Of a DNA stretch of 64,000 nt, positions 2,759 to 50,853 are shown piece by piece. The DNA lies in NCBI GenBank assembly GCA_937907245.1, contig CALCUM010000003.1:124001-188000 (forward strand), given 5' to 3'. The notes under the pieces are model-generated. The model ran no database searches. It worked only from the letters and a program-made list of their open reading frames with translations, and was not told where the DNA came from. Origin of the DNA: an uncultured Rhodobiaceae bacterium. GTDB lineage: Bacteria; Pseudomonadota; Alphaproteobacteria; RS24. A program made the position numbers and the translations under genes. How positions within the stretch are numbered: position 1 is the first letter of the stretch; the number at the start of each line of letters is the position of its first letter.

Positions 2759-2800
2759 GGTTTCCCCCAATACCCGCGCTTTCTTAACGCGCTATTTGTT

Positions 2801-3526
2801 CTAAATCTTTTTTGTCTTCGCTTCTATTATTTTTCGCCCCCGTGGGCTTGCACAGGCGGCGGAGTGGGCTTGCACAGGCGGCGGAAAGGCATGTTCTTGC
2901 TCGCCATCTAAATACAGCGAGTATTTTTGCATGACGCGTGAAAAATTCGGCCAGTCTAAAAACCGCAACACCCAATCGCGCACATTGGGCAATTCCAGAT
3001 GTTCGTCGAACCAATTTATATCGGCGATGCGGAACTGGCGCACGAAAGGCAGCAAGGCGACATCTGTATAAGAGGGTGTATCGGCGGGCGCGGCTCCGCC
3101 CAACCAATCGCCGGTCAAGCGCGCCTCTAAAGGAGCCAGCAACCGCACGCAATGGTCGCGTTGTTCGGTTACATCCACGGCTTCTTCGGGGAAGCGCGTG
3201 GCATATTTATAGCGGTCTAAATGATGTTTGAAGTCTGTGTCGAAAAGGTCGATGACCGCGTCGTCTTTATTTGGCAGCCAGTTTAGCGGATCATTTTGCG
3301 CTAGCGCCCAATCCATCACGGCGCGGCTTTCGTCTATCACCTCGCCCGATGGCAAACGCAACACGGGCACGGTGCCTTTGGGCGAAAGCGCGAGCATGGC
3401 TTCGGGTTTATCGCGCAATATAATTTCGCGCAAAACCACAGGCACTTCGGCCACGGCGACGGCCATGCGGGCGCGCATCGCATAGGGGCAGCGCCGAAAA
3501 CTATAGAGCTGGGGTAGCTCAGTCAT
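2801..3526 (-). CDS. glutathione S-transferase family protein
   Basis: 241-residue cytosolic GST-like protein. The N-terminal thioredoxin fold begins LYSFRRCPYAMRARMA, with the CPYA motif placing a cysteine at the active-site position, as in omega/GrxB-like GSTs. The second half is an all-alpha GST C-terminal domain (about residues 90-215). The ATG at 3526 overlaps the stop of the upstream trhO by 8 bp and has GAGAGA upstream. The last 20 residues are low-complexity (AACASPRGRK and on) and arise from a perfect 22-bp duplication at 2842-2885 that changes the reading frame; without it the protein would end about 16 residues earlier. Substrate unknown. Confidence 0.82.
   Translation of the reverse strand: MTELPQLYSFRRCPYAMRARMAVAVAEVPVVLREIILRDKPEAMLALSPKGTVPVLRLPSGEVIDESRAVMDWALAQNDPLNWLPNKDDAVIDLFDTDFKHHLDRYKYATRFPEEAVDVTEQRDHCVRLLAPLEARLTGDWLGGAAPADTPSYTDVALLPFVRQFRIADINWFDEHLELPNVRDWVLRFLDWPNFSRVMQKYSLYLDGEQEHAFPPPVQAHSAACASPRGRKIIEAKTKKI
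2842..2885. repeat. 22-bp perfect tandem duplication in the 3' end of the GST gene
   Basis: The unit beginning GTGGGCTTGCACAGGCGG occurs back to back at 2842-2863 and 2864-2885. Being 22 bp (not a multiple of 3), it shifts the reading frame of the GST C-terminus. With a single copy the frame would read HAFPPPVQAHGGEK then stop. Confidence 0.9.
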
Positions 3527-4553
3527 TGGCTCTCTCGGGTGCGCTCTCGGGCGCGCTCTCGGGTGCGCTCTCGGGCGCGCTCCCATCCCCCTGTTGGCCG
3601 ATGTGTTCTTCGCCGCGCGCGCGGGCTAATTTGATTTGCTTCTGGCGTTGGCGAAAGCGCAAGCGGTCGGCTTCCGAATGGGTATCGATGCAATGCTCGC
3701 ACGAGATGCCCGCCTCATAGGCCGGGTGCTGCTTTTGCGTTTGGGTCAGTGGCATTCGGCAGCCGTGGCACATGTCATAGTCGCCCTCTTTGAGCCCATG
3801 TTTGACGCTGACGCGCTGGTCGAAGACGAAGCAATCGCCGTCCCATTTGCTGTCGGTCTCGGCCACGGTTTCGAGGTATTTGAGGATGCCGCCTTCGAGG
3901 TGGAAGATGTTTTCAAAGCCTTGGCCTACCAGATAGGCGGTGGCTTTTTCGCAGCGAATGCCGCCGGTGCAAAACATGGCGATGTTTTTTGGCTTTTCGG
4001 CTTCGTCTAATTTGGCCAGATAGCCATCCACCCATTCGGGGAATTCTCGGAACGACTTGGTTTTCGGGTTCACCGCGCCTTCGAAAGTCCCGATGGCGAC
4101 TTCAAAGGCATTGCGCGTATCGATGACCAACGTGTCGGGGTCGGCGATGAGCTGGTTCCAATCTTTGGGGGCGACATAAGCGCCGACGTCTCCGACGGGG
4201 TCAATATCGGGCTGGCCCATGGAGACGATTTCTTTTTTGAGGCGCACTTTCATGCGGTGAAAACTGGCCTCGGAAGCGAAGCTGAATTTCGGGGAAATAT
4301 CGGCAAGGCGCGCATCGGCGGCGAAAGCCTGCATAAGGGCTTCGAGCGCGGTTTGCGAGCCGCAAACCGTACCGTTAATGCCTTCGGGCGCCAGCAGAAT
4401 AGTGCCCAGCAAACCCGCTCGGCGGCAATGGGTTTGCAAAATCGGGCGCACGGCTTCGAAGTCATCGAGGCGCACGAATTTATAAAACGCAGCCACAACA
4501 AAAGGCGTCTCGGCAGGCGCGGCAGGCACCGCTATGGGGGAGGTCATGCTCAT
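3519..4553 (-). CDS. trhO: tRNA uridine(34) hydroxylase (rhodanese-domain TrhO/YceA)
   Basis: About 344 residues. TrhO hydroxylates U34 of tRNAs at the start of cmo5U/mo5U wobble formation. It carries the N-terminal TrhO domain (FYKFVRLDDFEAVRPIL, LAPEGINGTVCG), a central rhodanese domain with active-site cysteine in MFCTGGIRCEKA, and a C-terminal Cys pair region (CHGCRMPL, CEHC) typical of the family. The C-terminus ends in four SAPE repeats encoded by a 12-bp tandem repeat at 3532-3582. The start is uncertain: ATG at 4553 or 4547 is preferred to the upstream TTG at 4568; none has a strong Shine-Dalgarno. It precedes the GST gene with an 8-bp overlap, so the two are probably co-transcribed. 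Confidence 0.9.
   Translation of the reverse strand: MSMTSPIAVPAAPAETPFVVAAFYKFVRLDDFEAVRPILQTHCRRAGLLGTILLAPEGINGTVCGSQTALEALMQAFAADARLADISPKFSFASEASFHRMKVRLKKEIVSMGQPDIDPVGDVGAYVAPKDWNQLIADPDTLVIDTRNAFEVAIGTFEGAVNPKTKSFREFPEWVDGYLAKLDEAEKPKNIAMFCTGGIRCEKATAYLVGQGFENIFHLEGGILKYLETVAETDSKWDGDCFVFDQRVSVKHGLKEGDYDMCHGCRMPLTQTQKQHPAYEAGISCEHCIDTHSEADRLRFRQRQKQIKLARARGEEHIGQQGDGSAPESAPESAPESAPERAND
3532..3582. repeat. 12-bp tandem repeat, 4.25 copies, in the 3' end of trhO
   Basis: The unit CTCTCGGGTGCG alternates with CTCTCGGGCGCG at 3532, 3544, 3556 and 3568, with a partial unit at 3580. The alternation makes a 24-bp higher-order unit. It encodes repeated APES on the minus strand and keeps the frame. 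Confidence 0.92.
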
Positions 4554-4656
4554 GGGGGGAATGTGCAAGAAATCGGCACGGATTTCAATTGTCTTTGCTA
4601 AGAGGCGTGACTAGGCTGGGCGGCAAGAAAAGAACATCCTGCAAAAGGAGCGGAAA

Positions 4657-4728
4657 ATGGCTGATTACTATAAAGCAGAATTAACGGCGGAAGAGCGCGC
4701 GGAGTTTGGCGCAAAATTAATGAGATGA
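4657..4728 (+). CDS. 23-codon ORF in front of the TPR gene (probable displaced N-terminus)
   Basis: ATG at 4657 has a good Shine-Dalgarno (AAAGGAGCGG) and reads MADYYKAELTAEERAEFGAK before ending in TGA at 4726-4728, overlapping the ATG (4725) of the TPR gene. Restoring one A in the AAAA tract at 4713-4716 would continue this frame as INEMTTRIEAD, directly into the TPR protein. I therefore read it as the original start of the TPR gene, separated by a one-base deletion, a programmed frameshift or a sequence error. A genuine coupled leader peptide is the alternative. Confidence 0.5.
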   Translation: MADYYKAELTAEERAEFGAKLMR

Positions 4729-6197
4729 CGACTCGCATCGAGGCTGATTCAAATGACGCTGAAGCTTATCGAATACGTGGCGTTTATCTCGATGAACTGA
4801 GACAATACGAAGCCGCAATGGCCGATTACAACAAGGCGATTGAGCTTGAGCCAGATTATGCCGATGCCTACAATAAACGTGGCATTGCTAACAATGTCCT
4901 CAAGCAATACGAAGCCGCAATAACCGATTGTGACAAGGCCATTGAGCTTAAGCCAGATTTTGCCGAGGCCTACAGAAATCGAGGCATTGCTCACCATCAC
5001 CTGAAACAATACGAAGCCGCATTCGACGATTATGACAAAGCCATTGAGCTTAAGCCAGATTATGCCGATGCCTACAATGGTCGCGGCATTACTCACAAAG
5101 CCCAGAAACAATACGAGGCCGCATTCGACGATTATGACAAGGCCATTGAGCTTAAGGCAAATAATGTCACGGCCTACATTAATCGCGGCATTACTCACAT
5201 AGCCCAGAAACAATACGAGGCCGCATTCGACGATTATGACAAGGCCATTGAGCTTAAGCCAGATTTTGCCAATGCCTATTGTTATCGTGGCAATGCTCGC
5301 GTTGGCCTGAAACAATACGAAGCCGCATTCGCCGATTATGACAAAGCCATTGAGCTTAAGCCAGGTTTTGCCGATGCCTTTTATAATCGCGGCATTGCTC
5401 ACAGTGGCCTGAAACAATACAAAGCTGCAATCGCCGATTTTGACAAGGCGATTGAGCTTGACCCAATCAATCCCAGCTACATACACAACCGTGCGGTAGC
5501 GATGGCTTTTCAAGAATCTGAAAAAGAACGCGAGGAAATGTCTGCGCGCCTAGAAGAAGGGTTTGATACAAAACTTAGTGAGGCACTCGAAGAGCAGTCA
5601 GATGAATTTGCCGCTCAGGCAGGCCAGCTACTCGGCAATTTAAAAGACAACATTGACACGCTTGGTAGAGAGAAGCGCAGGCATGGGCGTAACACTCTTG
5701 GGCTCAGTATCTTACAAGCTTTAATTTTCCTATTTTGGTTAGCTGGTCTTTATTGTTATTTTACAGAGAACGTACTTGATACAGTTGGCTTTCGTCATCC
5801 AATGGCAGTCCTGCCTTATATATCCATCGCCCTTGTAATTTCGACACCCGTGATTTGGGGGCTGAAGATATTGGGTCAAAATATTTTAGAGGCTAAAAGC
5901 CTTAAGCAAGATGCCCTGCGTCGTTTATTCATCGAAAACAATCTGAGGCGCATACCTACCAGCAACTCAGCAGAAAGAGAAATTCGTCAAAAAATGCTGG
6001 CCGGATATTTCACAAGCTGGCAAAACAATTCGCCTGTCGAGATATTGTTGCAGCTAAACTCGAGGCGCATTGGCCCAGAAACATTTTTAGACCGCATTCT
6101 ACCCATTGGCTCAAAACCGAATTATACCAAACTGGCGGATAAACAGGCTCTCGCCTCCCCTCCAATCAAGCCCCCAACGTCCGACGGCGTTAGCTGA
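4725..6197 (+). CDS. TPR-repeat membrane protein
   Basis: 490 residues from ATG 4725. Residues about 10-255 hold seven near-identical 34-residue tetratricopeptide repeats of the type YEAAFDDYDKAIELKPDY; adjacent units are almost identical even at DNA level (102-bp period from about 4746 to 5475). A charged, probably coiled-coil segment (about 265-320, KEREEMSARLEE) follows, then two hydrophobic segments (about 326-348 and 362-385) that look like membrane helices, then a cytoplasmic tail. TPRs mediate protein-protein contacts; partner and function are not recognisable. This start has no Shine-Dalgarno of its own; the better one belongs to the ORF at 4657. Flanked by unrelated genes and probably a single transcription unit. 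Confidence 0.75.
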   Translation: MTTRIEADSNDAEAYRIRGVYLDELRQYEAAMADYNKAIELEPDYADAYNKRGIANNVLKQYEAAITDCDKAIELKPDFAEAYRNRGIAHHHLKQYEAAFDDYDKAIELKPDYADAYNGRGITHKAQKQYEAAFDDYDKAIELKANNVTAYINRGITHIAQKQYEAAFDDYDKAIELKPDFANAYCYRGNARVGLKQYEAAFADYDKAIELKPGFADAFYNRGIAHSGLKQYKAAIADFDKAIELDPINPSYIHNRAVAMAFQESEKEREEMSARLEEGFDTKLSEALEEQSDEFAAQAGQLLGNLKDNIDTLGREKRRHGRNTLGLSILQALIFLFWLAGLYCYFTENVLDTVGFRHPMAVLPYISIALVISTPVIWGLKILGQNILEAKSLKQDALRRLFIENNLRRIPTSNSAEREIRQKMLAGYFTSWQNNSPVEILLQLNSRRIGPETFLDRILPIGSKPNYTKLADKQALASPPIKPPTSDGVS

Positions 6198-6207
6198 CGG
6201 CGACCCG

Positions 6208-6309
6208 TTTTGGTGGGCGGGGACAAGCGACGCCAACTTGTTGGCTTGGAGCGCGCTCTAGGTTAGGGCGCAGCCCTGACATGGAGCTTTAGCCAAGCTT
6301 CCACCAAAA
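6208..6309. repeat. 102-bp element bounded by inverted repeats
   Basis: TTTTGGTGG (6208-6216) is perfectly complementary to CCACCAAAA (6301-6309). Inside, GCTTGG (6244-6249) pairs with CCAAGC (6293-6298), and small hairpins can form at GCCAAC/GTTGGC (about 6232-6245) and AGGGC-GCA-GCCCT (6265-6277). It occupies nearly all of the space between two convergent genes. It could be a structured 3' RNA or a small palindromic repeat element; no transposase is nearby. Confidence 0.4.
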
Positions 6310-6350
6310 GAAAAAACAACCGAAGGACAAAAACAAACTCGGTTCGAATT

Positions 6351-8126
6351 TTAGTACCCCACAGCCCTATCGTCTTCCCCACGGCTCGCGTCCGCCGCGC
6401 CTTCCAGCGTGCCGTCTTCTTGCACCACAATCGCCTCCACGCGGCCCAGCGCGTATTTGAAATGTGGCCACGGATACAGCTTATGCTCGCGCGCCAGCAG
6501 CCCGCGCATGTTGCTTACGCTCATCGTGCCTTTTTCTAGCATCACGAAATCTGGCTGCCATTGGCTGTGGCTTTTTCGGGCATGCACCGCTTGTTGCGCC
6601 GACATATCAAAGTCGATGAGGTTTAAAAGCGTTTGAAATACCGAGGTGATAATCGTCGCGCCGCCCGGAGTGCCGACCACTATTTTTAACGCGCCGTCTT
6701 TTTCCACGATGGTCGGCGTCATCGATGACAACATGCGTTTGCCCGGCGCGATGGCATTTTTATCATCGCCCACGAGGCCGAATTGATTGGCGTGGCCCGG
6801 TTTGATGGAAAAGTCATCCATCTCATTATTGAGGAAAAAACCCCCGCCCTGCACCACCAGCTTGGCGCCGAAATTACCGTTTAACGTGGTGGTGATGGAA
6901 ACCGCATTGCCTTGCGGGTCGACGATGGAGAAATGCGTCGTCTCGACGCTTTCAATGACCCGCACAAGGCCCGGTTTTACTTGCTCGCTTGGGGTTTTAA
7001 CGCGCATCGAAATATCGCCATTGCGCGCCGCGATATAGGCTTTATCGGTCAGGGTTTTTATGTCTACTGACACGAAATCTGTGTCGCCCATATGGGTGGC
7101 GCGGTCGGCGTAGACGCGGCGTTCTAGCTCGGTCATCAGGTGAATATGCGCCGCAGAATTATGCCCCATGGCGCCAATGTCATAGCTTTCCGCGCCCTGT
7201 AAAAGCTGTGCCAAGGCCACGCCGCCAGACGAGGGCGGCGGCATGGAAATGACCGTATGGCCGCGATAAGAAAACTCTATCGGCTTGCGCCAGACGGCCT
7301 CATAGGCGGCTAAATCTTGTAGGCTAATCAGCCCGCCGCCAGCCATCATTTCCTCGGTGATTAAATTGGCGGTCTCGCCCTTATAAAAATCGTCGCGGCC
7401 TTGGGTGGCGATGCGGTCTAGGGTGCGGGCTAAATCTGGAAACGTAATTCGCTCGCCCGCCTCCCAAGCGCCCTCTGGCTTTACCACGGCGGGCGAGAAG
7501 CGGTTTACCTCGCGGAAATCTTGTTGATAACGGTTGAACATGCGCGCCGCTTTCGGCGTTAGCTCAAACCCGCTTTGCGCCAAATGAACACTGGGGCGCA
7601 CCAGCGCATCCCATGGTTTAGAGCCAAAGCGCTCGTGCAAGGCCACCATGCCCGCCACACTGCCCGGCACGCCCACCGCAAAATGACCCTTGAGGCTAAG
7701 CCCTTTAATCACCTCGCCCTGCGCGTCTAAATACATGTCTCGGCTGGCTTCCAAGGGGGCGCGTTCGCGAAAATCTAACGCGCCGCGCTCGCCATTGGCC
7801 AAGCGATAGACCATAAAACCGCCGCCGCCGATATTGCCCGCCTGCTGGTAAACCACGCTCAAAGCAAAGTTAACCGCCACCGCCGCATCAAACGCATTGC
7901 CGCCATCGCGCAGCACATCGCGGCCAATTTCGGACGCCAAAAAATGCGCCGAAACGACCATCGCCTCATCGCCCGTTACCCCCGCAGGCGCCAAACGCCA
8001 ATGATGCGCCACATGCACTGATTGCAAATGCAGAAATGGGCCCATAAACATAAGCGCCACCATGGCGGCAATTGCCCATGCGGGTTGCTTTGCAGAGACG
8101 GGGGTCTGAGAGCTAACTTTGGACAT
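6351..8126 (-). CDS. ggt: gamma-glutamyltransferase (glutathione hydrolase) proenzyme
   Basis: 591-residue Ntn-hydrolase precursor that cleaves glutathione and other gamma-glutamyl amides outside the cytoplasm. An N-terminal hydrophobic segment (about residues 16-36) serves as signal or anchor. The autoproteolytic site is visible as ESVE|TTHFSIVD, putting the nucleophile at Thr396; the small-subunit motifs LNGNFGAKLVV, LNNEMDDFS and MLSSMTPTIV follow. Large-subunit motifs GGNAFDAAVA and GNIGGGGFM are intact. The ATG at 8126 has AAGGAAA upstream. It is divergent from the dienoyl-CoA reductase gene, with the 150-bp spacer 8127-8276 holding both promoters. Confidence 0.93.
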   Translation of the reverse strand: MSKVSSQTPVSAKQPAWAIAAMVALMFMGPFLHLQSVHVAHHWRLAPAGVTGDEAMVVSAHFLASEIGRDVLRDGGNAFDAAVAVNFALSVVYQQAGNIGGGGFMVYRLANGERGALDFRERAPLEASRDMYLDAQGEVIKGLSLKGHFAVGVPGSVAGMVALHERFGSKPWDALVRPSVHLAQSGFELTPKAARMFNRYQQDFREVNRFSPAVVKPEGAWEAGERITFPDLARTLDRIATQGRDDFYKGETANLITEEMMAGGGLISLQDLAAYEAVWRKPIEFSYRGHTVISMPPPSSGGVALAQLLQGAESYDIGAMGHNSAAHIHLMTELERRVYADRATHMGDTDFVSVDIKTLTDKAYIAARNGDISMRVKTPSEQVKPGLVRVIESVETTHFSIVDPQGNAVSITTTLNGNFGAKLVVQGGGFFLNNEMDDFSIKPGHANQFGLVGDDKNAIAPGKRMLSSMTPTIVEKDGALKIVVGTPGGATIITSVFQTLLNLIDFDMSAQQAVHARKSHSQWQPDFVMLEKGTMSVSNMRGLLAREHKLYPWPHFKYALGRVEAIVVQEDGTLEGAADASRGEDDRAVGY

Positions 8127-8276
8127 ATGAATAACGGTTTCCTTGAGGGGTTATAAATAACTTTGGTTTCTATGAGCTTAGTCATAATCCTCGCCCTCGC
8201 CACCAGAAAAACCAAAACTGTGCCTTGTAAGACTAGAAATTGCGCTCTAGGATTTAGCGCTTATAGGGAGAGTATC

Positions 8277-10361
8277 ATGAGTGCTGCTGAAAAAATTCTA
8301 CCGGGTCATCAAAAATACGCGCGTTTATTTACGCCGCTGGAGCTGGGCCATACCGTGCTGAAAAACCGCGCGATTATGGGCTCTATGCACACAGGCCTCG
8401 AAGAGCAATCGGACGGCTTTGAGCGCATGGCGGCCTATTATGCCGAGCGCGCGGCTGGCGGCGTTGGCATGATTATTACCGGCGGCATTTCGCCAAATGA
8501 AGAAGGCGGCATGCTGTTGCAGGATAAAGACGGCGTCAAAATGTTCGCCGCTTCCAAATTATCCAATGAAGCCGAAGCCGAAGGCCATCGCATGGTGACC
8601 GATGCTGTGCATGCGGCGGCGCCCGATTGCAAAATGGTTATGCAAATTTTGCATATGGGCTCATTGGCAGTGAATGAGGCACCGGTGGCGCCCTCGCCCA
8701 TTAAGTCTCGCATCTCGCGCACCGCGCCAGTTGAGTTGGATGACATGGGGCTAGAAAAACAAATCGCTGACCACGCAGAATGCGCCCGCTTGGCCAAACA
8801 TGCGGGCTATGATGGGGTCGAGATTATTGGCTCGGCTGGCTATTTGCTGTCGACTTTTTTGGTTGAGAAAACCAACCAGCGCACCGACCAATATGGCGGC
8901 TCTTACGAAAATCGCATGCGCTTTCCCCTCGAGGTGGTGCGCCGTGTGCGCGAAGCCGTGGGCGAAGACTTTATCGTGGTGTTCCGCATTGCGGCCATGG
9001 ATATGCTGCAAGGCGGCATGAGCTGGGATGAGGTGGCGCAATTGTCGAAAGAGCTAGAGAAAGCCGGCACCAGCATTATCTCCACGCATTTTACTTGGCA
9101 CGAAAGCGCCGTGCCGACCATCGCCACTATGGTGCCACGCGCAGCCTTTACGTCTGTCACGGCGCGCGTGCGCAAAGAAGTGTCGATACCCGTCATCACC
9201 TCCAACCGCATTAACATGCCGCAGGTTGCCGAAGATGTTCTCGAGCGCGGCGATGCCGACCTTGTGTCAATGGCCCGCCCGATGCTGGCCGACAGCCAAT
9301 TTATGGCCAAAGCAGCCGAAGATCGCGCCGATGAAATTAACACCTGTATCGCCTGCAATCAGGCGTGCCTCGACCATACATTTGGCGGCAAAACCACCAG
9401 CTGTTTGGTTAATCCACGCGCTTGCCATGAAACAATATTGAAATATGAGCCCACGCAAAATGCCAAAACCATTGCGGTAATTGGCGCCGGCCCTGCGGGG
9501 TTGGCCTATGCCACCACGGCGGCCGAACGCGGCCATGAGGTAAGTTTGTTTGATGCGGGCTCAGAAATTGGCGGCCAGTTTAACCTCGCCAAATTAGTGC
9601 CGGGCAAAGAAGAGTTTTACGAGACGCTGCGCTATTACGGTAAAATGATTGAGAAACTGAATATTAAGCTCACGCTAAATACCCGCGTGGAACCCGATAT
9701 GTTAAGCGGGTTTGATCATATCGTTGTGGCAACAGGCATCAGCCCACGCGTGCCCGATATGGAAGGCATCACCCATGAAAAAGCCGTTAGCTATATTGAT
9801 GTGCTGAAAGGCAATAAACCGGTTGGTAAGCGCGTGGCTATTATGGGCGCTGGCGGCATTGGGTTTGATGTGGCCGATACGCTATCGCATGATGGCCCGT
9901 CGGGGGCTTTAGATATTGATGTTTTTGCCAAAGAATGGGGCGTCGACTTTAAAAACCATCCGCGTGGCGGCGTAACGGGCATTGAGCCAGAGGTGGCGAG
10001 CGCCGACAGAGAAATTTTCCTGATGCAGCGCAAAGATACCGCCGTCGGCAAAGGACTGGGCAAAACTACAGGCTGGACGCATCGGCTAACCTTGGCGCGG
10101 CGCGGCGTTAAAATGCTCAATGGCATTGAGTATCAAAAAATTGACGACCTCGGCCTGCATATCACGCGGGATGGGCAGCCAGATATTTTGGAAGTCGACA
10201 CAGTCGTCATCTGCGCCGGACAAGAACCTTTGCGCACCTTGTTTGATACGCTGGAAGCCAGTCATCCTTCCGTGGAGCTGGTTGGCGGGGCCTATGAGGC
10301 GGCCGAACTAGATGCCAAAGCCGCCATTAAACAGGCTTGCCAATTGGCCGCAGCTATTTAG
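8277..10361 (+). CDS. fadH: NADPH-dependent 2,4-dienoyl-CoA reductase
   Basis: 694-residue iron-sulfur flavoenzyme that reduces 2,4-dienoyl-CoA intermediates so that polyunsaturated fatty acids can enter beta-oxidation. N-terminal old-yellow-enzyme FMN barrel (LFTPLELGHTVLKNRAIMGS, about 1-350); 4Fe-4S ligands Cys357, Cys360, Cys364 and Cys376 with the family spacing of 3, 4 and 12; then the FAD (VIGAGPAGLA) and NADPH (IMGAGGIGFD) domains. I place the start at ATG 8277, which has AGGGAGAG upstream; the reading frame extends further 5' but without family-like sequence. Related TMADH-like enzymes share the architecture, but the GSMHTGLEE region is FadH-like. Confidence 0.9.
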   Translation: MSAAEKILPGHQKYARLFTPLELGHTVLKNRAIMGSMHTGLEEQSDGFERMAAYYAERAAGGVGMIITGGISPNEEGGMLLQDKDGVKMFAASKLSNEAEAEGHRMVTDAVHAAAPDCKMVMQILHMGSLAVNEAPVAPSPIKSRISRTAPVELDDMGLEKQIADHAECARLAKHAGYDGVEIIGSAGYLLSTFLVEKTNQRTDQYGGSYENRMRFPLEVVRRVREAVGEDFIVVFRIAAMDMLQGGMSWDEVAQLSKELEKAGTSIISTHFTWHESAVPTIATMVPRAAFTSVTARVRKEVSIPVITSNRINMPQVAEDVLERGDADLVSMARPMLADSQFMAKAAEDRADEINTCIACNQACLDHTFGGKTTSCLVNPRACHETILKYEPTQNAKTIAVIGAGPAGLAYATTAAERGHEVSLFDAGSEIGGQFNLAKLVPGKEEFYETLRYYGKMIEKLNIKLTLNTRVEPDMLSGFDHIVVATGISPRVPDMEGITHEKAVSYIDVLKGNKPVGKRVAIMGAGGIGFDVADTLSHDGPSGALDIDVFAKEWGVDFKNHPRGGVTGIEPEVASADREIFLMQRKDTAVGKGLGKTTGWTHRLTLARRGVKMLNGIEYQKIDDLGLHITRDGQPDILEVDTVVICAGQEPLRTLFDTLEASHPSVELVGGAYEAAELDAKAAIKQACQLAAAI

Positions 10362-19595: not shown

Positions 19596-21260
19596 CTAGC
19601 GCGCATCGCGGAAACCATTGGTAATAGGATAACGGCGATCGCGGCCAAAGTTGCGATTGCCAATTTTTGCGCCAGGGGCCGCCTGACGGCGCTTATATTC
19701 CGAGATATATAAAAGATGCTCAATGCGTTTTACCGTCTCGGCGTCATGGCCGCGCGCGATAATTTCATCGAAGCTCAATTCATCTTCTACCAAGGCGAAC
19801 AGAATATCGTCCAGCTGCTCGTAAGGCGGCAGACTATCTTCGTCTTTCTGGTCGGGGCGCAATTCAGCACTGGGTGGCTTGTCGATAATTGTTGGCGGAA
19901 TAACCTCCCCCTCGGGGCCCAAACCGCCGACAGGTAGGTTTTCATTGCGCCAGCGACATAGCGCAAAAACTTCGGTTTTATAAATATCCTTAATCGGATT
20001 ATACCCGCCGTTCATATCGCCATAAAGCGTTGCATAGCCGACCGAGACTTCCGACTTATTGCCTGTGGTCACCACCATCGAGCCGAATTTATTCGACACG
20101 GCCATCAGCAATGTGCCGCGCAACCGCGATTGAATATTCTCTTCCGTAATATCTGCCTGCGTGCCCTTAAACAACTCAGACAAAGCGCCTTCCACGGCGT
20201 CAACAGGTTCGGCAATCGAAACATCATCAAGGCGAATACCGAGTTGCTTGGCGCAAGCTGCCGCATCCGTGAGGCTTTCATCGCTGGTATAGCGCGAGGG
20301 TAGCATGATGCAATGCACGCGCTCAGCCCCCAGCGCATCGACGGCCATGGCGGCGCAAATGGCACTATCAATGCCGCCCGAAAGCCCCAGTAAAACGCCG
20401 GGGAAACGGTTTTTCTCGACATAGTCTCGCAAGCCCAGAACGGCGGCCGCGTAAATATCGCCCAGCTCGTCTTGGGTTTCGGGGTTGCCCGTTGGCTCGC
20501 TTATTTGCCAGCCGCTCTCGCTCTCGTGCAAAGCCAAGATATGCGTGTCGGTATTCCAGGCTGGGCGTTGCTCGGCCAGTGTGCCGTCGGCGTTGACCGC
20601 AAAGCTGGCGCCATCAAATACCAACTCATCTTGGCCGCCATATTGGTTCACGTAAACCAGCGGCAATCCGGTTTGTTGGGCTCGCGCGCTGGCATGCGCC
20701 ACACGTTGGGCTTGCTTGCCGCGCTCGAAAGGCGAACCATTAGGCGAGAGTAGCAGTTCCGCCCCGTCAGCTTTTAAATGCGCGCAGACATCTTCAAACC
20801 AAATATCTTCACAAATCGGCAGCCCCACGCGCACGCCGCGTAACTCGACCGCTTTGGGTAATGGCCCTGCCGCGAACAGGCGTTTTTCGTCAAACACCGC
20901 ATAATTGGGCAAATGATGTTTGTGACGAACCGCCATTTGGCCGCCATCGGCCACCACAACGCTATTATAAAGCTGGCCGTTCTCGACCATGGGCGCGCCA
21001 AAAACTAGCGCCGGTCCGCCGTCCGCCGTATCTGCTACCAGCTTTTCAACCTCGGCGTGCACGCGGGCCAAAAAAGCCCGTTTGAGAACTAAATCTTCAG
21101 GTGGATAGCCGGTTAAAAACAGCTCGCTGGCCAGCACAATATCGGCTTTCTCGGCACCTGCCCGCGCCGCCCGCAACAAATCGGCATTGGCCGCAATCGC
21201 GCCCAAGGTCGGGTTCAATTGAGCCAAGGCAATTTTCAAAGTTTTTACGCCAGTTTCCAT
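19596..21260 (-). CDS. nadE: glutamine-dependent NAD+ synthetase
   Basis: 554 residues catalysing the last step of NAD synthesis, amidation of nicotinate adenine dinucleotide using glutamine. N-terminal nitrilase-type glutaminase (about 8-260): catalytic Glu in LASELFLTGYPPEDL, Lys in RHKHHLPNYAVFDEKR, Cys in LPICEDIWFE. C-terminal synthetase with the PP-loop LGLSGGIDSAI (about 294) and TTGNKSEVSVGYATLYGD. The two-domain form explains the length. It is the first gene of the nadE-gltX-cimA-psd-pssA run and is divergent from the enoyl-CoA hydratase gene. Confidence 0.95.
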   Translation of the reverse strand: METGVKTLKIALAQLNPTLGAIAANADLLRAARAGAEKADIVLASELFLTGYPPEDLVLKRAFLARVHAEVEKLVADTADGGPALVFGAPMVENGQLYNSVVVADGGQMAVRHKHHLPNYAVFDEKRLFAAGPLPKAVELRGVRVGLPICEDIWFEDVCAHLKADGAELLLSPNGSPFERGKQAQRVAHASARAQQTGLPLVYVNQYGGQDELVFDGASFAVNADGTLAEQRPAWNTDTHILALHESESGWQISEPTGNPETQDELGDIYAAAVLGLRDYVEKNRFPGVLLGLSGGIDSAICAAMAVDALGAERVHCIMLPSRYTSDESLTDAAACAKQLGIRLDDVSIAEPVDAVEGALSELFKGTQADITEENIQSRLRGTLLMAVSNKFGSMVVTTGNKSEVSVGYATLYGDMNGGYNPIKDIYKTEVFALCRWRNENLPVGGLGPEGEVIPPTIIDKPPSAELRPDQKDEDSLPPYEQLDDILFALVEDELSFDEIIARGHDAETVKRIEHLLYISEYKRRQAAPGAKIGNRNFGRDRRYPITNGFRDAR

Positions 21261-21396
21261 GTCGCTTATGTAGCGCGTGGCGGCGCTTTGGACAAGTAGC
21301 TGTCTCTATTCGCGGCGAGCGGGAAAACCGTTGCAAAATTTGGTTTTTACAGGTGATACTCAAACCAGAGCCAGACCCTAACCACAGGAAACCCTC

Positions 21397-22182
21397 ATGC
21401 TGACGCAAGACAAATATAAGCGGATGAAGATAGAGCGCCGCGCCAATGGCGTGGTTGTGGTGTCTTTGAACCGACCTGAAAAAATGAATGCTATCGACAA
21501 CCAGTTGCATCATGAAATGATGACTTTCAGCCGCGACTTTGCCGATGACCCCGATTTGCGCGCGCTGGTTTTGGCCGGCGAAGGCAAAGCCTTTTGTGTG
21601 GGCGGAGACTTTAGCGCCGATAGCGCCATCGACATGCCAAGCCTCACCGAAGCGCGGCGCATTATCGACCATATTCTAGAATGCGAAAAACCGATTATCT
21701 CTGCCGTGCAAGGCTATGCGCTAGGGCTGGGAGCCAATATTGCGCTTTTATGCGATGTCGTAGTAGCTGGGCCGGACGCGAAATTTGGCGATACCCATGT
21801 GAAAATGGGCATTGGCGCAGGCGACGGCGGGCAGCTTATCTGGCCTATGCTCATCGGTGTTAACCGAGCCAAATACTACCTGATGACCGGCGATATGATT
21901 AGCGGCAAAGACGCCGCCGACATGGGATTGGTGGGGTTTTATGTTGAGGAAACAAAAGACCTAATGCCCAAAGCCCTAGAGATTGCCGATAAATTAGCCG
22001 CCGGACCGCCTTTGGCCATTGCCGCCTCCAAGGCAGGCGTGAACGCCTATATGCGGGCGGTTTCGGCCAGTGTCATGCCCATCAGCTTGCAAGCCGAAGG
22101 CATGACCCTGCAATCGGATGACCATCAAGAAGCGGTGGCCGCCTTTCAAGAAAAACGACCTGCTAAATTCGAAGGAAAATAA
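21397..22182 (+). CDS. enoyl-CoA hydratase/isomerase family protein
   Basis: 261-residue crotonase-fold protein. LNRPEKMNAID, AGEGKAFCVGGDFS (first oxyanion-hole strand) and VQGYALGLGANIALLCDVVVAGPDAKFGDTHVK (second oxyanion loop and trimer contact) are typical. The catalytic acid region reads KMGIGAGDGG. It probably acts on acyl-CoA thioesters in fatty-acid or related catabolism, but the family is broad. ATG 21397 has an AGGAA ribosome-binding site. The next gene, a CurA-like reductase, starts 1 bp after its stop, so the two are co-translated. Confidence 0.87.
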   Translation: MLTQDKYKRMKIERRANGVVVVSLNRPEKMNAIDNQLHHEMMTFSRDFADDPDLRALVLAGEGKAFCVGGDFSADSAIDMPSLTEARRIIDHILECEKPIISAVQGYALGLGANIALLCDVVVAGPDAKFGDTHVKMGIGAGDGGQLIWPMLIGVNRAKYYLMTGDMISGKDAADMGLVGFYVEETKDLMPKALEIADKLAAGPPLAIAASKAGVNAYMRAVSASVMPISLQAEGMTLQSDDHQEAVAAFQEKRPAKFEGK

Positions 22183-32069: not shown

Positions 32070-32924
32070 TTAACTTTCTTGTTTTAGAGGAGCGCCCAAT
32101 TGCAAAATCCGACAGACGGCAAACGTCAGATCCGCTTGGTTGAGCGTGTAAAAGTGTAAGTATTCGAAGCCTTCTTCCAGCAGTTTACGGCATTGGTCAA
32201 CTGCGACAGAGGCGCCGATATGTTTGCGCGTATCTAGGTCTTCGTCTAGCCCCGCATAAAGCGCAATCAGCTCGTCTGGCATATGCGCGCCGCAAGCCTC
32301 AGCCATCCGCTTGGCGCCCACGAAATTCGTTGTTGGCATGATACCAGGTATCACCGGAATGGTGACATGGGCCGCCGCCAAGGCATCGCGAAACCGCAAA
32401 TGCGCATCTGTATCAAATACAAATTGCGTAATCGCACGCGTCGCACCGGCATCAATTTTGGCTTTCAACAAATCGATATCATCGCTCAAAGAGCCCGATT
32501 CTGGATGTTTTTCAGGATAGGCACTCACGGTAATATCAAAGCCGCCGCGTTTGGCTAGCGCTTCAATCAGCTCTACCGATCCGCTATAGCCATCGCTATG
32601 GGGCGAAAACGCGCCCATATCCGGCATGTCGCCACGCAGCGCCACAATATGCTTCACCCCTGCGGCGGCATAATCATCCACCACGCTGTCTACTTCGGCC
32701 TTGCTGGCTGCCACGCAGGTTAAATGCGCGGCCGGTTTAAGACGGGTCTCATCAATGATGCGCTTGACGCACGAATGCGTGCGGTCGCGCGTGGAGCCAC
32801 CTGCCCCATAGGTGACCGAAACAAAATCGGGGCCCAGCGGCGCCAGACGCGAGATATTATGCCAAAGCTTATCGGCCGCCGCCTCTGATTTGGGCGGAAA
32901 AAATTCAAAACTAATCGCGGTCAT
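32070..32924 (-). CDS. metF: 5,10-methylenetetrahydrofolate reductase
   Basis: 284-residue FAD-containing TIM barrel making 5-methyl-THF, the methyl donor used by the adjacent metH product. FEFFPPKS with the catalytic glutamate at the N-terminus, VTYGAGGSTRDRT, HIVALRGDMPD and TQFVFD are conserved. ATG 32924 overlaps the arsR/methyltransferase stop by 4 bp (ATGA), tying its translation to the putative regulator. Confidence 0.95.
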   Translation of the reverse strand: MTAISFEFFPPKSEAAADKLWHNISRLAPLGPDFVSVTYGAGGSTRDRTHSCVKRIIDETRLKPAAHLTCVAASKAEVDSVVDDYAAAGVKHIVALRGDMPDMGAFSPHSDGYSGSVELIEALAKRGGFDITVSAYPEKHPESGSLSDDIDLLKAKIDAGATRAITQFVFDTDAHLRFRDALAAAHVTIPVIPGIMPTTNFVGAKRMAEACGAHMPDELIALYAGLDEDLDTRKHIGASVAVDQCRKLLEEGFEYLHFYTLNQADLTFAVCRILQLGAPLKQES

Positions 32925-33919
32925 CTTGCATTCCTATTTTCTTTTTGCGGCAGCTCGAGCTTTTCGGCTTGCCACATAGCGACGGTTAAATCTTGCTCTC
33001 CAGACGAAGATTCCGGCGAGAGGGTCTGTGTTTCACGAACCTGTAAACCGCTCTGGGTAAGCATGGCGCGCATCTCGGCATCGCCAAAACCAAGCCGACG
33101 ATGGGCGTGGTCTTCGCGCAAGGCTTCCATTTCATGCGGGCCAAAATCCGCGATTAACACGCGCCCACCAGGTGCCAGAATGCGTGCCGCCTCATTTAGG
33201 GCCCGCTGCGGATCGTCTAGAAAATGCAGCACTTGGTGCAGAATAACGACACTGGCAACATTGTCTTCTAGGGGCACATTGGCGCAATCGCCTTGGCGCA
33301 CTTGGCAGTTTTTCGCGCCCACTTCGTCTAGCTTGCTGCGGGCCAGCGTTAACATATCTGCGCTGACATCAAAGCCGATGGCGCGTTGCGCCAAATGACC
33401 GAAAATTTCGAGCATACGCCCCGTGCCGGTGCCTAAATCAATCAATAACGCCATGTCGCCAGAATGCGCCTCTAGCTGATCTGCCATTTTTTCTTCCACC
33501 GCTGTTTCAGGAATATGGCGCGCGCGCAATTCATCCCAGCTCGCGGCATTGGCAGCAAAATAATTTTGCGCCCGTTCGGCTCGTAGCTGGCGAACCTCAC
33601 CAAAGCGCTCACGGTCGCGCAAGATATCGTGGTCATCTTCGGGAATATGACGAATGATTTGCGCCAAAACACCCGACACATGGGTGCCCTCATGCAGGCG
33701 ATAAAACACCCAACTGCCTTCCGGATACCGCTGCACCAAACCGGCATCTGCCAGTAACTTAAGGTGTCGCGAAATGCGGGGCTGGCTTTGGGAGAGCACC
33801 TGCGTTAGCTCAGACACCGTCAACTCCCCAAGCGCCAAAATGGCGAGGATGCGAAGCCGTGTCGGTTCTCCCGCGGCGCGAAGGGCGGATAAAAGCTGTT
33901 CCATATCAGGTTTATACAT
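32921..33919 (-). CDS. ArsR-type HTH fused to SAM-dependent methyltransferase domain; probable methionine-cycle regulator
   Basis: About 332 residues. N-terminal winged helix (about 1-90; ELTVSELTQVLSQSQPRISR, HLKLLADAGLV) without the ArsR metal-binding cysteines, so metal sensing is unlikely. C-terminal class I methyltransferase (about 130-325) with motif I LIDLGTGTGRML, motif IV-like VVILHQVLHFLDD and LAPGGRVLIADFGPH. Comparable fusions sit next to metF/metH in other alphaproteobacteria and resemble SahR-type regulators that sense S-adenosylhomocysteine; here that role is inferred from position and domains. Start choice: ATG 33919 has AAGGA at suitable spacing; ATG 33925 and 33904 are alternatives. 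A 16-bp palindrome lies at its 5' end. Confidence 0.85.
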   Translation of the reverse strand: MYKPDMEQLLSALRAAGEPTRLRILAILALGELTVSELTQVLSQSQPRISRHLKLLADAGLVQRYPEGSWVFYRLHEGTHVSGVLAQIIRHIPEDDHDILRDRERFGEVRQLRAERAQNYFAANAASWDELRARHIPETAVEEKMADQLEAHSGDMALLIDLGTGTGRMLEIFGHLAQRAIGFDVSADMLTLARSKLDEVGAKNCQVRQGDCANVPLEDNVASVVILHQVLHFLDDPQRALNEAARILAPGGRVLIADFGPHEMEALREDHAHRRLGFGDAEMRAMLTQSGLQVRETQTLSPESSSGEQDLTVAMWQAEKLELPQKENRNAR

Positions 33920-33921
33920 AA

Positions 33922-33937
33922 ACATATCCTTATATGT
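33922..33937. promoter_or_regulatory. palindromic candidate operator before the arsR-metF-metH run
   Basis: ACATAT-AAGG-ATATGT is a perfect 6-4-6 inverted repeat overlapping the ribosome-binding site and a TTGACA hexamer (33940-33935) of the arsR/methyltransferase gene. Its position and symmetry fit an autoregulatory operator for the winged-helix protein it precedes. The assignment is inferred. Confidence 0.5.
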
Positions 33938-34067
33938 CAAGGAATAAGCCAATAAATCATCGAATATATCGGTAGCTTTACACCAGAGTGGGGAAAAAAT
34001 GCCGTCCCCTCTTTTCCAAAGGGGCAAATAAGCCTAGCTTATGGCCACCCATACGGAGCCAAAGACG

Positions 34068-35535: not shown

Positions 35536-37188
35536 TCTGGCGAATTGCTTGTATTTAATGCGTTTTGGCACTTCGGCATCCGTGCCGAGGCGGCGTTTTC
35601 TGTCTTCTTCGTATTCCGCGTAATTGCCCTCAAACCATTCCACATGGCTATCGCCTTCAAAGGCCATAATATGCGTGGCAATGCGATCTAGGAACCAACG
35701 GTCATGGCTGATGATAACCGCGCAGCCGGCAAAATTATCCAGCCCTTCTTCAAGCGCACGAAGCGTTTCTACGTCTAGATCATTGGTTGGCTCATCGAGC
35801 AGCAGCAGGTTCGAGCCAGATTTTAGCATTTTTGCCAAATGAACGCGGTTGCGCTCGCCGCCCGACAAGAGCCCAACTTTCTTTTGTTGGTCGCCACCAC
35901 GGAAATTAAATGCGCCCACGTAAGCGCGAGAGTTCATCTCACGATTACCCAGTTCCAGAATATCATTGCCGCCCGAAATTTCTTCCCAGACCGTTTTATC
36001 ATCGGCCAGCGTATCGCGGCTTTGGTCGACATAGCCCATGACGGCCGTATCGCCCACCCGAAGCGCGCCGCTATCTGGCGTCTCCCCACCGGTCAGCATT
36101 TTGAACAGCGTTGTTTTACCCGCGCCATTGGGGCCAATAACCCCAACGATACCGCCCGGCGGCAGCGTGAACGACAAATCATCAATCAGCAATTTATCGC
36201 CAAAGCCTTTCGTCAAGTTCTCGCCTTCCAACACAATGCCACCAAGGCGGGGGCCAGATGGAATGGTGATTTGCGTGCGGCCCACGTCTTCGCGGCCTTG
36301 GCTTTCCAGTAATTCTTCATAGGCGTTAATCCGCGCCTTACTTTTGGCTTGGCGCGCTTTCGGGGACTGGCGAATCCAATCCAGCTCATTGGCCAATGTG
36401 CGTTGCTTGCTGTCGTCCTCGCGCGATTCTTGCTCGAGGCGTTTTTGTTTCTGCTCCAGCCAATTGGAATAATTGCCCTCGTAAGGCAGGCCTTGGCCAC
36501 GGTCCAGCTCTAAAATCCAGCCTGTGATTTGGTCTAGGAAATAGCGATCATGCGTTACCAAAACAACGGTGCCCGCAAAGGCCTCTAGGTGATGTTGCAG
36601 CCAAGCCACGGTTTCCGCATCGAGATGGTTGGTTGGCTCATCGAGGAGCAAGAGGTCTGGCTCCTCCAAAAGTAATTTGCAAAGTGCGACGCGCCGCTTT
36701 TCACCGCCCGACAAGTTTTCGACCGATGCCTCGCCCGGAGGACAGCGCAAAGCATCCATGGCTTGCTCTACTTGCGCGTCCAAATCCCATAGGTTTTGCG
36801 CGTCAATTTGATCTTGCAAGGCAGCCATTTCTTCGGCCGTCTCGTCAGAATAATTCATCGCCAATTCATTATAACGCTCCAGAAGTGCCTGCTTTTCAGC
36901 CACGCCTTCCATCACATTGCCGACAACGTCTTTTTCTGGGTTAAGCTGCGGCTCTTGCTCGAGATAGCCGATTTTGGCACCTTCGGCGGCCCAAGCCTCG
37001 CCCTGATACTCGGTATCTACGCCAGCCATAATTTTCAGCAAAGTCGACTTACCCGAGCCATTGACCCCGACAATGCCGATTTTCGCACCGGGGAAAAACG
37101 AAAGGCGCACTTCCTTTAAAACCTGTTTGCCACCGGCATAGGTTTTGGACAATTTATCCATCACATAAACATATTGATACGCAGCCAT
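35533..37188 (-). CDS. ettA: energy-dependent translational throttle protein EttA (ABC-F)
   Basis: 551 residues, soluble ABC-F ATPase that binds the ribosomal E site and gates the first elongation step according to ATP/ADP. Two ABC cassettes: Walker [10 protein letters not shown] (about 42) and GPNGAGKTT (about 350), signatures [11 protein letters not shown] and [11 protein letters not shown], Walker [13 protein letters not shown] and [12 protein letters not shown]. The interdomain P-site tRNA-interaction linker (about 240-310) and the EttA-specific C-terminus [12 protein letters not shown] are present. Transcribed alone; its 5' leader contains a perfect inverted repeat at 37216-37241. Confidence 0.95.
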
Positions 37189-37829: not shown

Positions 37830-38249
37830 TTAAAATATCGCCAGAGCCTCGCGCATAAGGAGCCCAAGCAAGACCGCCCAAGAGAGCATGAATAAGGCAA
37901 AGCGCAGCAGCACAATATTGACCGTAGCCTGCACAAGAGAATGCATCACGCGAAGCGCAACAAAGCCCCAAGCCAAAGCCACCGACACCGCATCGACATG
38001 CCCCGTCACCGCCAGCAGCAAAGCCACCGCATAAAATAAAGTCGGTTGCTCGAACAGATGATTGTAATTATCCCCGACCCGTCGGGCCTCGGTGGGAAAC
38101 GCCGTCATGGCCGACGGATGCGCCGCCTCGCCTTTCGGGAAACGGGTTTGACGGGCGGTTTGAAGCCTCATTTTGGCCAACCAAAGCATCATCACGCCGC
38201 TCCAAAGACCTAAAACAACGACGGGTTGCAGAATTGCCGAAACTTCCAT
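37830..38249 (-). CDS. MAPEG family membrane protein (upstream copy)
   Basis: 139 residues, same length and topology as its neighbour at 37336. The N-terminus (MEVSAILQPVVVLGLWSG) and the NYNHLFEQPTLFYA and MHSLVQATVNIVLLRF blocks are nearly identical; the 30-60 loop region differs (TARQTRFPKGEAAHP). The pair is a tandem gene duplication, probably one transcript ending at the terminator at 37279. Divergent from the amidohydrolase gene, with a shared 95-bp promoter region. Confidence 0.83.
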   Translation of the reverse strand: MEVSAILQPVVVLGLWSGVMMLWLAKMRLQTARQTRFPKGEAAHPSAMTAFPTEARRVGDNYNHLFEQPTLFYAVALLLAVTGHVDAVSVALAWGFVALRVMHSLVQATVNIVLLRFALFMLSWAVLLGLLMREALAIF

Positions 38250-38344
38250 TGTGTTGTCCCCCAGAAAACATATTATTAAGGCACAATTTTGCGCTGCTTT
38301 GCGCCACTATAGCAAGCCGTTCGTCACTTTCTTGGAGAGGTTTC

Positions 38345-40003
38345 ATGTCTGAAATTACCATTTTTACCGCCCGCATCATTCACACTATGGAGCCAAGTCT
38401 ACCGCAAGCCACCGCCATTGCCGTGCGCCAAACGAGTGAGGGTGAGGCGCAGATTTTAGAAGTCGGCACTTTGGAGAGCTTGCAACCCTGGATGAGCCGC
38501 CACCCGCACACAATAGACGAGCGCTTTGCTGATAAAGTGATTATGCCTGGTTTCATCGACCCGCATTTGCACCCAAGCATGGCGGCGGTTATTTTACCGA
38601 TGCAATTTATTACCGCCCTACCATGGGACTTGCCATGGGAGAGCGTGCCGGCGACAAAATCGCATGAGGCTTATCTCGAACGCCTGACCGATTTGACGCA
38701 AGGCGACGCCACAGAGCCGTTTTTCACTTGGGGCTACCACCGCAATTGGCATGGCGATATCACCCGCAAACAATTAGATGAAGCCGCCCCAAATCGGCCG
38801 GTAGTGGTTTGGCATCGCTCGTTCCATGAAGTGATTTTAAACACGGCCGCGCTGGAGCATTTTGGCCTCAACAATAATGAAGTGGGCGCGCATCCGCAGA
38901 TTAAGCTGGAAGACGGATTGTTTTACGAAAACGGTCTGCGCCTCGCCATTAACGCATTTAATCCGCTGATTATGTCGCCCGAAAAATTTGGCCTTGGCAT
39001 GCAGCGCCTCAAGCAAGTGGCCCATTTTGGTGGCCATACGATGCTGGGCGATATGGGCATTGGCATTTTTAATTTTGAGATGGAATGGCAAGCGGCCCTT
39101 GGGTTTTTCAACACAGACGACACGCCATTTCGGGTTCACTACACCCCTAATCTGCTGGCGCTGGCACATGATGGCGATTACGCCCGTGTCGAGACTGAAA
39201 TGTCAGCCTATCCTGACCTCAACACCGATAAATTATTCTTCACCGATCATGCGAAATTATTTACCGATGGCGCCTTCTTCTCGCAATTAATGATGGTCGG
39301 CCAGCCTGGTTATCTGGATGGCCATGAAGGCGAATGGATGATGGTTCCTGAGCGCTTCGAGGAAGCGGCGCGGCTTTTGTGGCACAAGGGCTATAAAATT
39401 CACGTCCACTGCACGGGCGACCTGGGGCTAGAGTTGGCGCTGGATACGCTGGAGAAACTGCAAGACGAGAAGCCGCGTTTCAACCATCGCTTCACGATTG
39501 AGCATTTTGGGCTTTCAACGCCCGAGCAAGTGCGGCGCATGGCGAGCCTTGGTGCCATTGCCTCGGTGAATGTTTATTATCTTCACGAGCTGAGCGAGAT
39601 TTATGCCCGCGATGCCATTGGCGAAGAGCGCGCCTATTCGATGGCGCGGCTTTGCACGCTGAAGCGCAATAATGTGCCGTTTGCGCTGCATTCCGATTAC
39701 ACGATGGCGCCTGCTTTGCCGCTGAACTCGGCTTGGGTGGCGGCGACGCGCAAAAATGAGGCCGGCAAAATTGTGGGTGAAGGTGAATGCGTGCCCGTAT
39801 ATGACGCGCTAAAAGCCATCACCCTCGATGCCGCATATGTGCTGGGCCTAGAAAATGAAGTCGGCAGCTTGCGGGCTGGCAAACGCGCTGACTTCACGGT
39901 GCTGGAGCAAGACCCATTTGAGGTGGGCGCACACGGGCTGCGCGATATTCCCATTTGGGGCACGGTGTTTAACGGCGTGCCGCACCCGATTGAAAAACCC
40001 TAA
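38345..40003 (+). CDS. amidohydrolase family protein (YtcJ-like)
   Basis: 552 residues of the amidohydrolase superfamily, YtcJ/COG1574 branch. N-terminal small beta domain (ITIFTARIIHTMEPS), then the metal motif IMPGFIDPHLHPSM, later histidines in KIHVHCTGDLGLELALD and FTIEHFGLS, the catalytic aspartate in LHSDYTMAPALPL, and the C-terminal LRAGKRADFTVLEQDPFEV. Substrate unknown; members hydrolyse amides or formamides. The start at ATG 38345 has GGAGAGG upstream; the frame extends further 5' without family similarity. Its stop shares one base with the start of the COG0523 GTPase. Confidence 0.85.
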   Translation: MSEITIFTARIIHTMEPSLPQATAIAVRQTSEGEAQILEVGTLESLQPWMSRHPHTIDERFADKVIMPGFIDPHLHPSMAAVILPMQFITALPWDLPWESVPATKSHEAYLERLTDLTQGDATEPFFTWGYHRNWHGDITRKQLDEAAPNRPVVVWHRSFHEVILNTAALEHFGLNNNEVGAHPQIKLEDGLFYENGLRLAINAFNPLIMSPEKFGLGMQRLKQVAHFGGHTMLGDMGIGIFNFEMEWQAALGFFNTDDTPFRVHYTPNLLALAHDGDYARVETEMSAYPDLNTDKLFFTDHAKLFTDGAFFSQLMMVGQPGYLDGHEGEWMMVPERFEEAARLLWHKGYKIHVHCTGDLGLELALDTLEKLQDEKPRFNHRFTIEHFGLSTPEQVRRMASLGAIASVNVYYLHELSEIYARDAIGEERAYSMARLCTLKRNNVPFALHSDYTMAPALPLNSAWVAATRKNEAGKIVGEGECVPVYDALKAITLDAAYVLGLENEVGSLRAGKRADFTVLEQDPFEVGAHGLRDIPIWGTVFNGVPHPIEKP

Positions 40004-45373: not shown

Positions 45374-45826
45374 TTAACTGAGGCGTTGTTTAACCAGACC
45401 GCCGGCTTTGCCAAAGTCCATTTGTCCGGCATATTTGCCTTTCAAGACACCCATGACTTTACCCATGTCTTTCAAAGATTGCGCCTCCACTTGCGTGCAA
45501 GCCGCTTCAACCGCAGCGGCTACCTCTTCGTCACTGAGTTGAGCTGGTAAGAAATCTTCAATGACAATAATCTCAGCCCGCTCTTGCTCGGCCAATTCCA
45601 ACCGACCCGCTTCTTCATAGGTGGTGGCTGCCTCTTGGCGTTGCTTTACCATTTTGGCAAGAATTTCTAGAATTTGATCGTCGCTAACGCCATCGCCATT
45701 GTCGGCACTGCGCGCGGCAATGTCTCGGTCTTTGATGGCTGCCATAATGAGGCGTAATGTAGAGACACGAATTTTATCTTTGGCCTTAACCGCTGTCTTC
45801 AGCGCTTCTGTGAACCGCTCTTGCAT
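45374..45826 (-). CDS. GatB/YqeY domain protein
   Basis: 150-residue YqeY-like protein, related to the C-terminal tRNA-recognition part of GatB; it may take part in tRNA-dependent amidotransfer, but free-standing members have no proven role. RFTEALKTAVKAKDKIRVSTLRL, IEDFLPAQLSDEE and MGKVMGVLKGKYAGQMDFGK are typical. Start at ATG 45826 with AAGGAG; the longer frame upstream is not conserved in type. First gene of the yqeY-dnaG-rpoD run. Confidence 0.88.
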   Translation of the reverse strand: MQERFTEALKTAVKAKDKIRVSTLRLIMAAIKDRDIAARSADNGDGVSDDQILEILAKMVKQRQEAATTYEEAGRLELAEQERAEIIVIEDFLPAQLSDEEVAAAVEAACTQVEAQSLKDMGKVMGVLKGKYAGQMDFGKAGGLVKQRLS

Positions 45827-46167
45827 GGTCAAACTCCTTGAAACCAATCTTTCCTCTATTGGCGACCCGAAACTGAGAGAGCTGCCAAGGAAGCCAGTGG
45901 TATATGCCAAAGCATGGGCTTTGGCAATGCTTCAAAAGTGATGCTTCAAAGGCACGGCTCTAAATCAGTGCTCAAAATCAGTGCTCAAAATCAGTGCTCA
46001 AAATCAAAGCGAAACTTTCCACTCAGAATCAAAGTTTACCTCTATGCTTCCCCGACCGAGGCAAATGACAAAACTCTCTACCCTCCGCCTTTTGCTCTCG
46101 GTTAAAAACTTCGCAAGACACTGTTTTTGTTGGTGTTTTTTTCACACAAGAATCGCAATAAGATCGC
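45827..46167. other. long intergenic region between yqeY and carA
   Basis: No convincing gene. It contains a perfect 9-bp hairpin (TGCCAAAGC-ATGG-GCTTTGGCA, 45905-45926), a repeated ATGCTTCAAA (45927 and 45941), a 13-bp tandem repeat (45962-46006) and T-rich segments towards the carA promoter. The yqeY promoter must lie in its left part. Confidence 0.6.
45962..46006. repeat. 13-bp tandem repeat, 3.5 copies
   Basis: AAATCAGTGCTCA occurs perfectly at 45962, 45975 and 45988, with AAATCA at 46001. It is non-coding. Possibly slippage-generated; a tandem regulator site cannot be excluded. Confidence 0.92.
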
Positions 46168-50500: not shown

Positions 50501-50853
50501 AACGCCTCGCAGAGCTGGGCTTTAATTTGGTTGCCACGCGCGGCACCGCCAGTTTCTTGAGCGACAATGGCGTGAGCGTCGAGCCCATCAATAAAGTGAT
50601 GGAAGGGCGCCCTCATATTGTCGACGCGATGAAAAACGACGCCGTACAATTGGTGGTGAACACCACTGAGGGCGAACAGTCTTTGGCCGATAGTAAATCC
50701 ATTCGACGCACGGCCCTGGAGATGAAAATTCCGTATTACACCACTTTGGCTGGCGCCGAAGCCGCGGTGGCGGCGATTGCAGCCCTTCGGAACAATTCGT
50801 TGAGCGTCACCAGCCTGCAAGACTATGGCATTCGGCGCGCCAAGAAAAATTAG
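47590..50853 (+). CDS. carB: carbamoyl-phosphate synthase large subunit
   Basis: 1087 residues with two homologous ATP-grasp halves: carboxyphosphate domain (about 1-400; [17 protein letters not shown]), oligomerisation domain (about 400-555), carbamoyl-phosphate domain (about 560-940; [17 protein letters not shown]) and the C-terminal allosteric MGS domain (about 945-1075; [14 protein letters not shown]). Makes carbamoyl phosphate for pyrimidine and arginine synthesis. Both manganese/ATP motifs ([18 protein letters not shown] and [15 protein letters not shown]) are intact. Co-translated with carA. Confidence 0.97.

Follow-up and report, generated by a model that had tools for sequence, protein, structure and literature searches.

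The TPR gene at positions 4657-6197 of a 64,000-nucleotide window (the whole stretch of DNA analysed here, from an uncultured Rhodobiaceae bacterium) was found to be split near its 5′ end, where it is one base shorter than two syntenic copies of the same genus, both of which have a continuous N-terminus. A split caused by a one-base shortening had been proposed in the preliminary description of this DNA, and it is borne out by these relatives. The configuration is probably explained by a recent and tolerated loss of one base in a dispensable gene, which is possibly still translated through termination-reinitiation to give a protein without its first 23 residues. The window lies within a small genome of 1.80 Mb in three contigs.

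Organization of the Split Reading Frame

The break separates two overlapping ORFs, and the elements involved are the following:

4657-4728, + strand: 23-codon ORF, the truncated N-terminus of the TPR gene (ATG at 4657-4659, stop codon TGA at 4726-4728)
4725-6197, + strand: TPR ORF of 490 aa, beginning at ATG 4725 and open throughout after the break
4725-4728, + strand: ATGA overlap of the stop and restart codons, in-frame Met-Thr codons (ATG AC) in the relatives
4643-4659, + strand: ancestral start codon with its ribosome-binding site (AAAAGGAGCGGAAAATG), unchanged in G004 and G005

The product of the 23-codon ORF is MADYYKAELTAEERAEFGAKLMR. It was correctly recognized at the outset that the well-positioned ribosome-binding site belongs to this short ORF, since the SD sequence AGGAG (4646-4650) is separated from ATG 4657 by a gap of 6 nt; in G004 and G005, the continuous TPR frame begins at the same site. 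No SD-like string was usefully placed before ATG 4725, the nearest one being a GGAG at 4701-4704, 20 nt off. The ATGA overlap between the two ORFs is also real, and it presents the overlapping stop and start codons (ATGA or TGATG) that characterize a termination-reinitiation pair.

Comparison with Relatives of the Same Genus

Relatives were sought among 12 genomes of the genus, the window genome included, several of which are fragmented, so that some copies may have been missed; in three of the 12, not even trhO was found. The flanking genes used as anchors were:

3519-4568, − strand: trhO (tRNA uridine hydroxylase), divergent neighbour and synteny anchor
6351-8126, − strand: gamma-glutamyltransferase gene, downstream anchor, also present after the G005 stub and after the replaced site of G001

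When the N-terminal protein of G004 was used as query, three of the 12 genomes presented a match (the window genome, G004 and G005), which in both relatives adjoins the divergent trhO as it does in the window. The string TGCAAAAGGAGCGGAAAATG, searched with up to two mismatches, occurred once and with zero mismatches in each of these three genomes and in 0 of the remaining nine, while the reversed pattern, taken as a control, had 0 occurrences in all 12; the sharing of this site exceeds chance. It was also observed that the leader at 4623-4659 is far better conserved than the protein behind it, with 36 of 37 columns identical in the three genomes against a protein identity of 54% to G004.

Both relatives run unbroken in a single frame from the upstream ATG across the position of the break, with the N-termini MIDDYEEELTAEERAEQERIVEEMTARIEAD in G004 and MADDENAKSTEDERTYLKLEVDRMTERIDKD in G005, which is the continuity looked for in same-locus relatives of a gene disrupted by a frameshift and the one that the preliminary description had advised looking for. 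The window reads MADYYKAELTAEERAE, changes frame and then continues as NEMTTRIEAD. Between the upstream ATG and the conserved Met-Thr codons, G004 and G005 have 69 nt and the window has 68 nt. Codons 1-16 of the 23-codon ORF are identical to G004 at 42 of 48 nt, after which the frame diverges and stops, and past the break the match to the G004 protein resumes at its residue 19, now in the other frame. Homologues beginning at MTTRIEAD with a ribosome-binding site of their own, which had been named as the observation that would speak against a split gene, were not represented by G004 or G005. The term intact refers here to the N-terminus only, a full-length intact orthologue not having been seen: the G004 copy leaves its contig after 132 codons, and the G005 copy is truncated. 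With regard to relaxed selection on the frame after the break, the differences to G004 by codon position were 61/55/72, in an ungapped comparison confounded by shifted TPR repeats. In a tblastn search of 66 collection-wide relatives, no recognizable copy of the N-terminal 23-30 residues was found, the one match being at chance level (E 0.97), and therefore these relatives have no bearing on the break.

The comparison also allowed the missing base to be placed:

4704-4719, + strand: stretch containing the one-base deficit of the window relative to G004 and G005, with the best fit at 4704-4711

In a one-gap scan against the two relatives (144 comparisons), the maximum of 99 matches was reached at 4709/4710, with 97-99 matches throughout 4704-4711, whereas the A tract (4713-4717) scored 93-94 and the ungapped alignment 84; MAFFT placed the gap at 4708/4709. 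The earlier suggestion that one more base joins the short ORF in frame to the TPR protein thus held, in agreement with the lengths seen in the relatives, but its location in the four A residues at 4713-4716 fitted less well. Since the A-tract placement falls short of the best by just 5-6 matches, the alignment favours 4704-4711 modestly.

The TPR Gene, Its Product and Its Locus

4797-5459, + strand: 6.5 tandem units of 102 bp encoding TPRs, with 83% matches

The 490-aa protein consists of the TPR array (PF00515, 201.1 bits against a Pfam gathering cut-off of 27.8), followed by two probable membrane helices, read by eye, and a C-terminal part. As in other TPR-containing proteins (Pfam TPR_1 and TPR_11 arrays), 34-residue repeats extend across the N-terminal half, and the difference from these proteins lies in the C-terminal 235 residues, for which Pfam gave no match at E values up to 1. 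In single comparisons, the C-terminal part weakly resembled a 350-aa protein of G001 (25% identity over 107 aa, E 1e-7) and a 402-aa TPR protein of G015 (27% over 100 aa, E 6e-10). These weak relatives share a Y..SW..N.P motif with the region 5490-6194, which is possibly an undescribed membrane domain. No second lesion of the kind expected in a pseudogene was found after the break, all 490 codons being open.

The only other match in the window genome was an FRG-domain and TPR protein (G000:C2:168511-170109; PF08867, 65.2 bits), encoded near serC-like and cytosine-methyltransferase-like ORFs named by eye; G023 harbors a similar-looking protein that also adjoins a serC-like ORF.

The gene is accessory, as indicated by the matches in only three of the 12 genomes, by the G005 copy, which ends after 84 codons (G005:C17), and by the corresponding site of G001, which is occupied by an unrelated gene, an aminotransferase-like ORF named by eye. 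The TPR locus turns over among the relatives. It was noted that the end of the G005 copy falls in an 11-bp hairpin (stretch z -2.56), as if it had been trimmed to a terminator. Neither plasmids nor viral contigs matched, the former having been searched with the C-terminal part and the locus, and hence there was no sign of a mobile element at the locus. A PADLOC search for a defence context returned solely TPR-repeat models for two proteins and none for the third, and a scan of 4500-6400 for promoters and terminators gave sites no more numerous than in shuffled sequences. Between trhO and the TPR gene, an inverted repeat (GAAATC-N6-GATTTC, 4569-4586) was found that is identical in G004 and G005 and has one change in G001; it is a possible operator.

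Genuine Mutation or Assembly Error

Another explanation, raised from the beginning, is that the break is a sequencing or assembly error and that the true genome has a continuous gene. One-base indels are a frequent error type, and the remainder of the TPR ORF is intact, an open stretch of 490 codons that would equally fit a healthy gene. An error of this kind is unlikely, being disfavoured by the rarity of other one-base breaks nearby, which was established by frame audits.

A first audit, with shadow ORFs included, gave 13 candidates in six comparisons, read collectively as shadows and upstream extensions. The next covered 48 stop-to-stop ORFs chosen by length, at least two of which (2787-3206 and 59305-59766) were shadows displacing real genes. 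Because of these shadows, the audit was repeated with start-to-stop ORFs. The 61 such ORFs of at least 150 aa in the window were compared with G001, G004 and G005, and for 50 of them at least one of these relatives aligned end to end in a single frame. The 11 exceptions comprised five shadow or overlapping readings (1781-2335, 4752-5513, 21100-21672, 35839-36309 and 49884-50591), four that differed only in the choice of start (8163-10358, 32924-34027, 38234-40000 and 45377-45910), the TPR gene and the tail of 2801-3586. Among the start-choice and shadow cases, 38234-40000 was inspected and showed an upstream extension only, and the other labels were judged from coordinates.

Further along the contig, a comparison of the following 100 kb with G005 gave matches for 79 of 88 ORFs, covering 78,858 nt, and none of these was split. 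In the reverse direction, over the same 100 kb, 71 of 86 matched, and 13 ORFs of G005 raised a flag on G000. Nine of these 13 were re-tested, the other four being short (110-130 aa): six aligned in one G000 frame, while the remaining three have extensions that run into an adjacent gene and are artefacts of the stop-to-stop definition. Eight further flags, outside this set, lay on G005 itself. No further one-base frame break was thus found in the audited window ORFs or in the ~79 kb of neighbouring coding sequence, which makes frequent assembly error unlikely; frame errors of the one-base kind are therefore rare in the assembly. Furthermore, the sole one-base break found is located in a genus-variable gene. 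The TPR ORF makes up about 2.5% of the ORF length (1,521 of 61,629 nt), so that a random error would fall there in about 1 case of 40, while a dispensable gene is where a real frameshift would be expected to persist, which is an argument from odds and no proof.

The audit also revealed a perfect 22-bp tandem duplication (2842-2885) in the glutathione-transferase-like gene at 2801-3586 (− strand), which shifts its last codons and results in a longer tail that differs from G001, G004 and G005. As this gene is a conserved neighbour, dispensable genes are not the only ones to undergo small frame changes, although here only a variable tail is touched.

Recoding, Phase Variation and a Leader Peptide

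Three further mechanisms were considered and rejected on the evidence of the relatives, the tract length, and the heptamer and fold. Programmed -1 recoding, by which both frames would be fused during translation, is very improbable. The shift would be in the needed direction, pairing at AAA can be restored one base back on A AAA, and a GGAG lies 8 nt upstream, but A AAA TTA does not have the X XXY YYZ form of a slippery heptamer and the downstream RNA folds no better than shuffled sequences (z -0.31), so that the site shows neither the heptamer nor the stimulatory structure of a programmed -1 frameshift, and the relatives require no shift.

Reversible phase variation by slippage in the A tract, one of the initial suggestions, would suit a probable membrane protein whose gene is broken close to its 5′ end, but it is scarcely credible for this site. 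No long homopolymer or simple-repeat tract is found at the break, where there is only A4, a run far below the lengths counted as phase-variable, and A runs of at least four occur 394 times on the + strand of the window; tract cut-offs given for Neisseria in PMC5953494 include G9 and T11. Moreover, the relatives do not favour a loss in the A tract and show no A run of at least four there.

The view that the short ORF is a small gene in its own right or encodes a functional leader peptide is equally hard to sustain, for in spite of its completeness and good SD sequence, the same start opens the TPR frame itself in both relatives and residues 1-16 align with the N-terminus of the TPR protein.

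Possible Translation of the Split Gene

Under the preferred reading, one base would have been lost in the window lineage, most likely at 4704-4711, some 50 nt after the start of an accessory TPR gene. The loss appears to be natural and recent, and it was presumably tolerated because the gene is dispensable. Ribosomes starting at the conserved 4657 would go out of frame and stop at 4726, and some of them should re-initiate at ATG 4725, in the TPR frame, yielding a product that would lack only the first 23 residues, which precede the first TPR. This re-initiation, and with it the expression of the split gene, is predicted from the arrangement of the codons.

The stop codon overlaps an ATG in the right frame because codons 24-25 of the gene are Met-Thr (ATG AC). 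As these codons are in frame in both relatives, the overlap is a by-product and did not evolve as a coupling device. In overlapping genes of H. volcanii, as described in PMC6728339, re-initiation did not need an SD sequence, and downstream translation was strictly dependent on upstream translation in nine of nine pairs; removal of the SD sequence decreased re-initiation by ~20-80% in six of seven pairs and increased it in one.

Met-Thr codons occupy positions 24-25 in all three copies seen. It may be speculated that they act as a safety net, in which a -1 indel anywhere in codons 1-23, where the shifted frame is open, stops the ribosome on the rescuing ATG, a proposal that we regard as doubtful. 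Just as doubtful is its corollary that N-terminal frameshifts would be partly self-rescuing and that the split form would persist as a working two-ORF gene.

Relation to Known Systems and Significance

The TPR gene is comparable to other frameshifted accessory genes, that is, recent pseudogenes or N-terminally altered genes, in its one-base indel, its continuous relatives and its patchy distribution, and it differs from them in that a stop-start overlap arises fortuitously at the break and could rescue expression. With the pairs coupled by termination-reinitiation at ATGA overlaps, as they are presented in PMC6728339, it shares the stop/start geometry and a downstream start without a well-placed SD sequence. 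In contrast to those pairs, the overlap arose here by mutation inside one gene and not between two genes, the upstream ORF has just 23 codons, and the coupling is putative.

Altogether, this is an ordinary event, mainly useful for annotation: a gene caller will probably begin the gene at 4725, missing the ancestral start at 4657 and the leader. Should the split form be expressed, it would illustrate, as a minor case from nature, how an overlap of stop and start codons can soften an indel.
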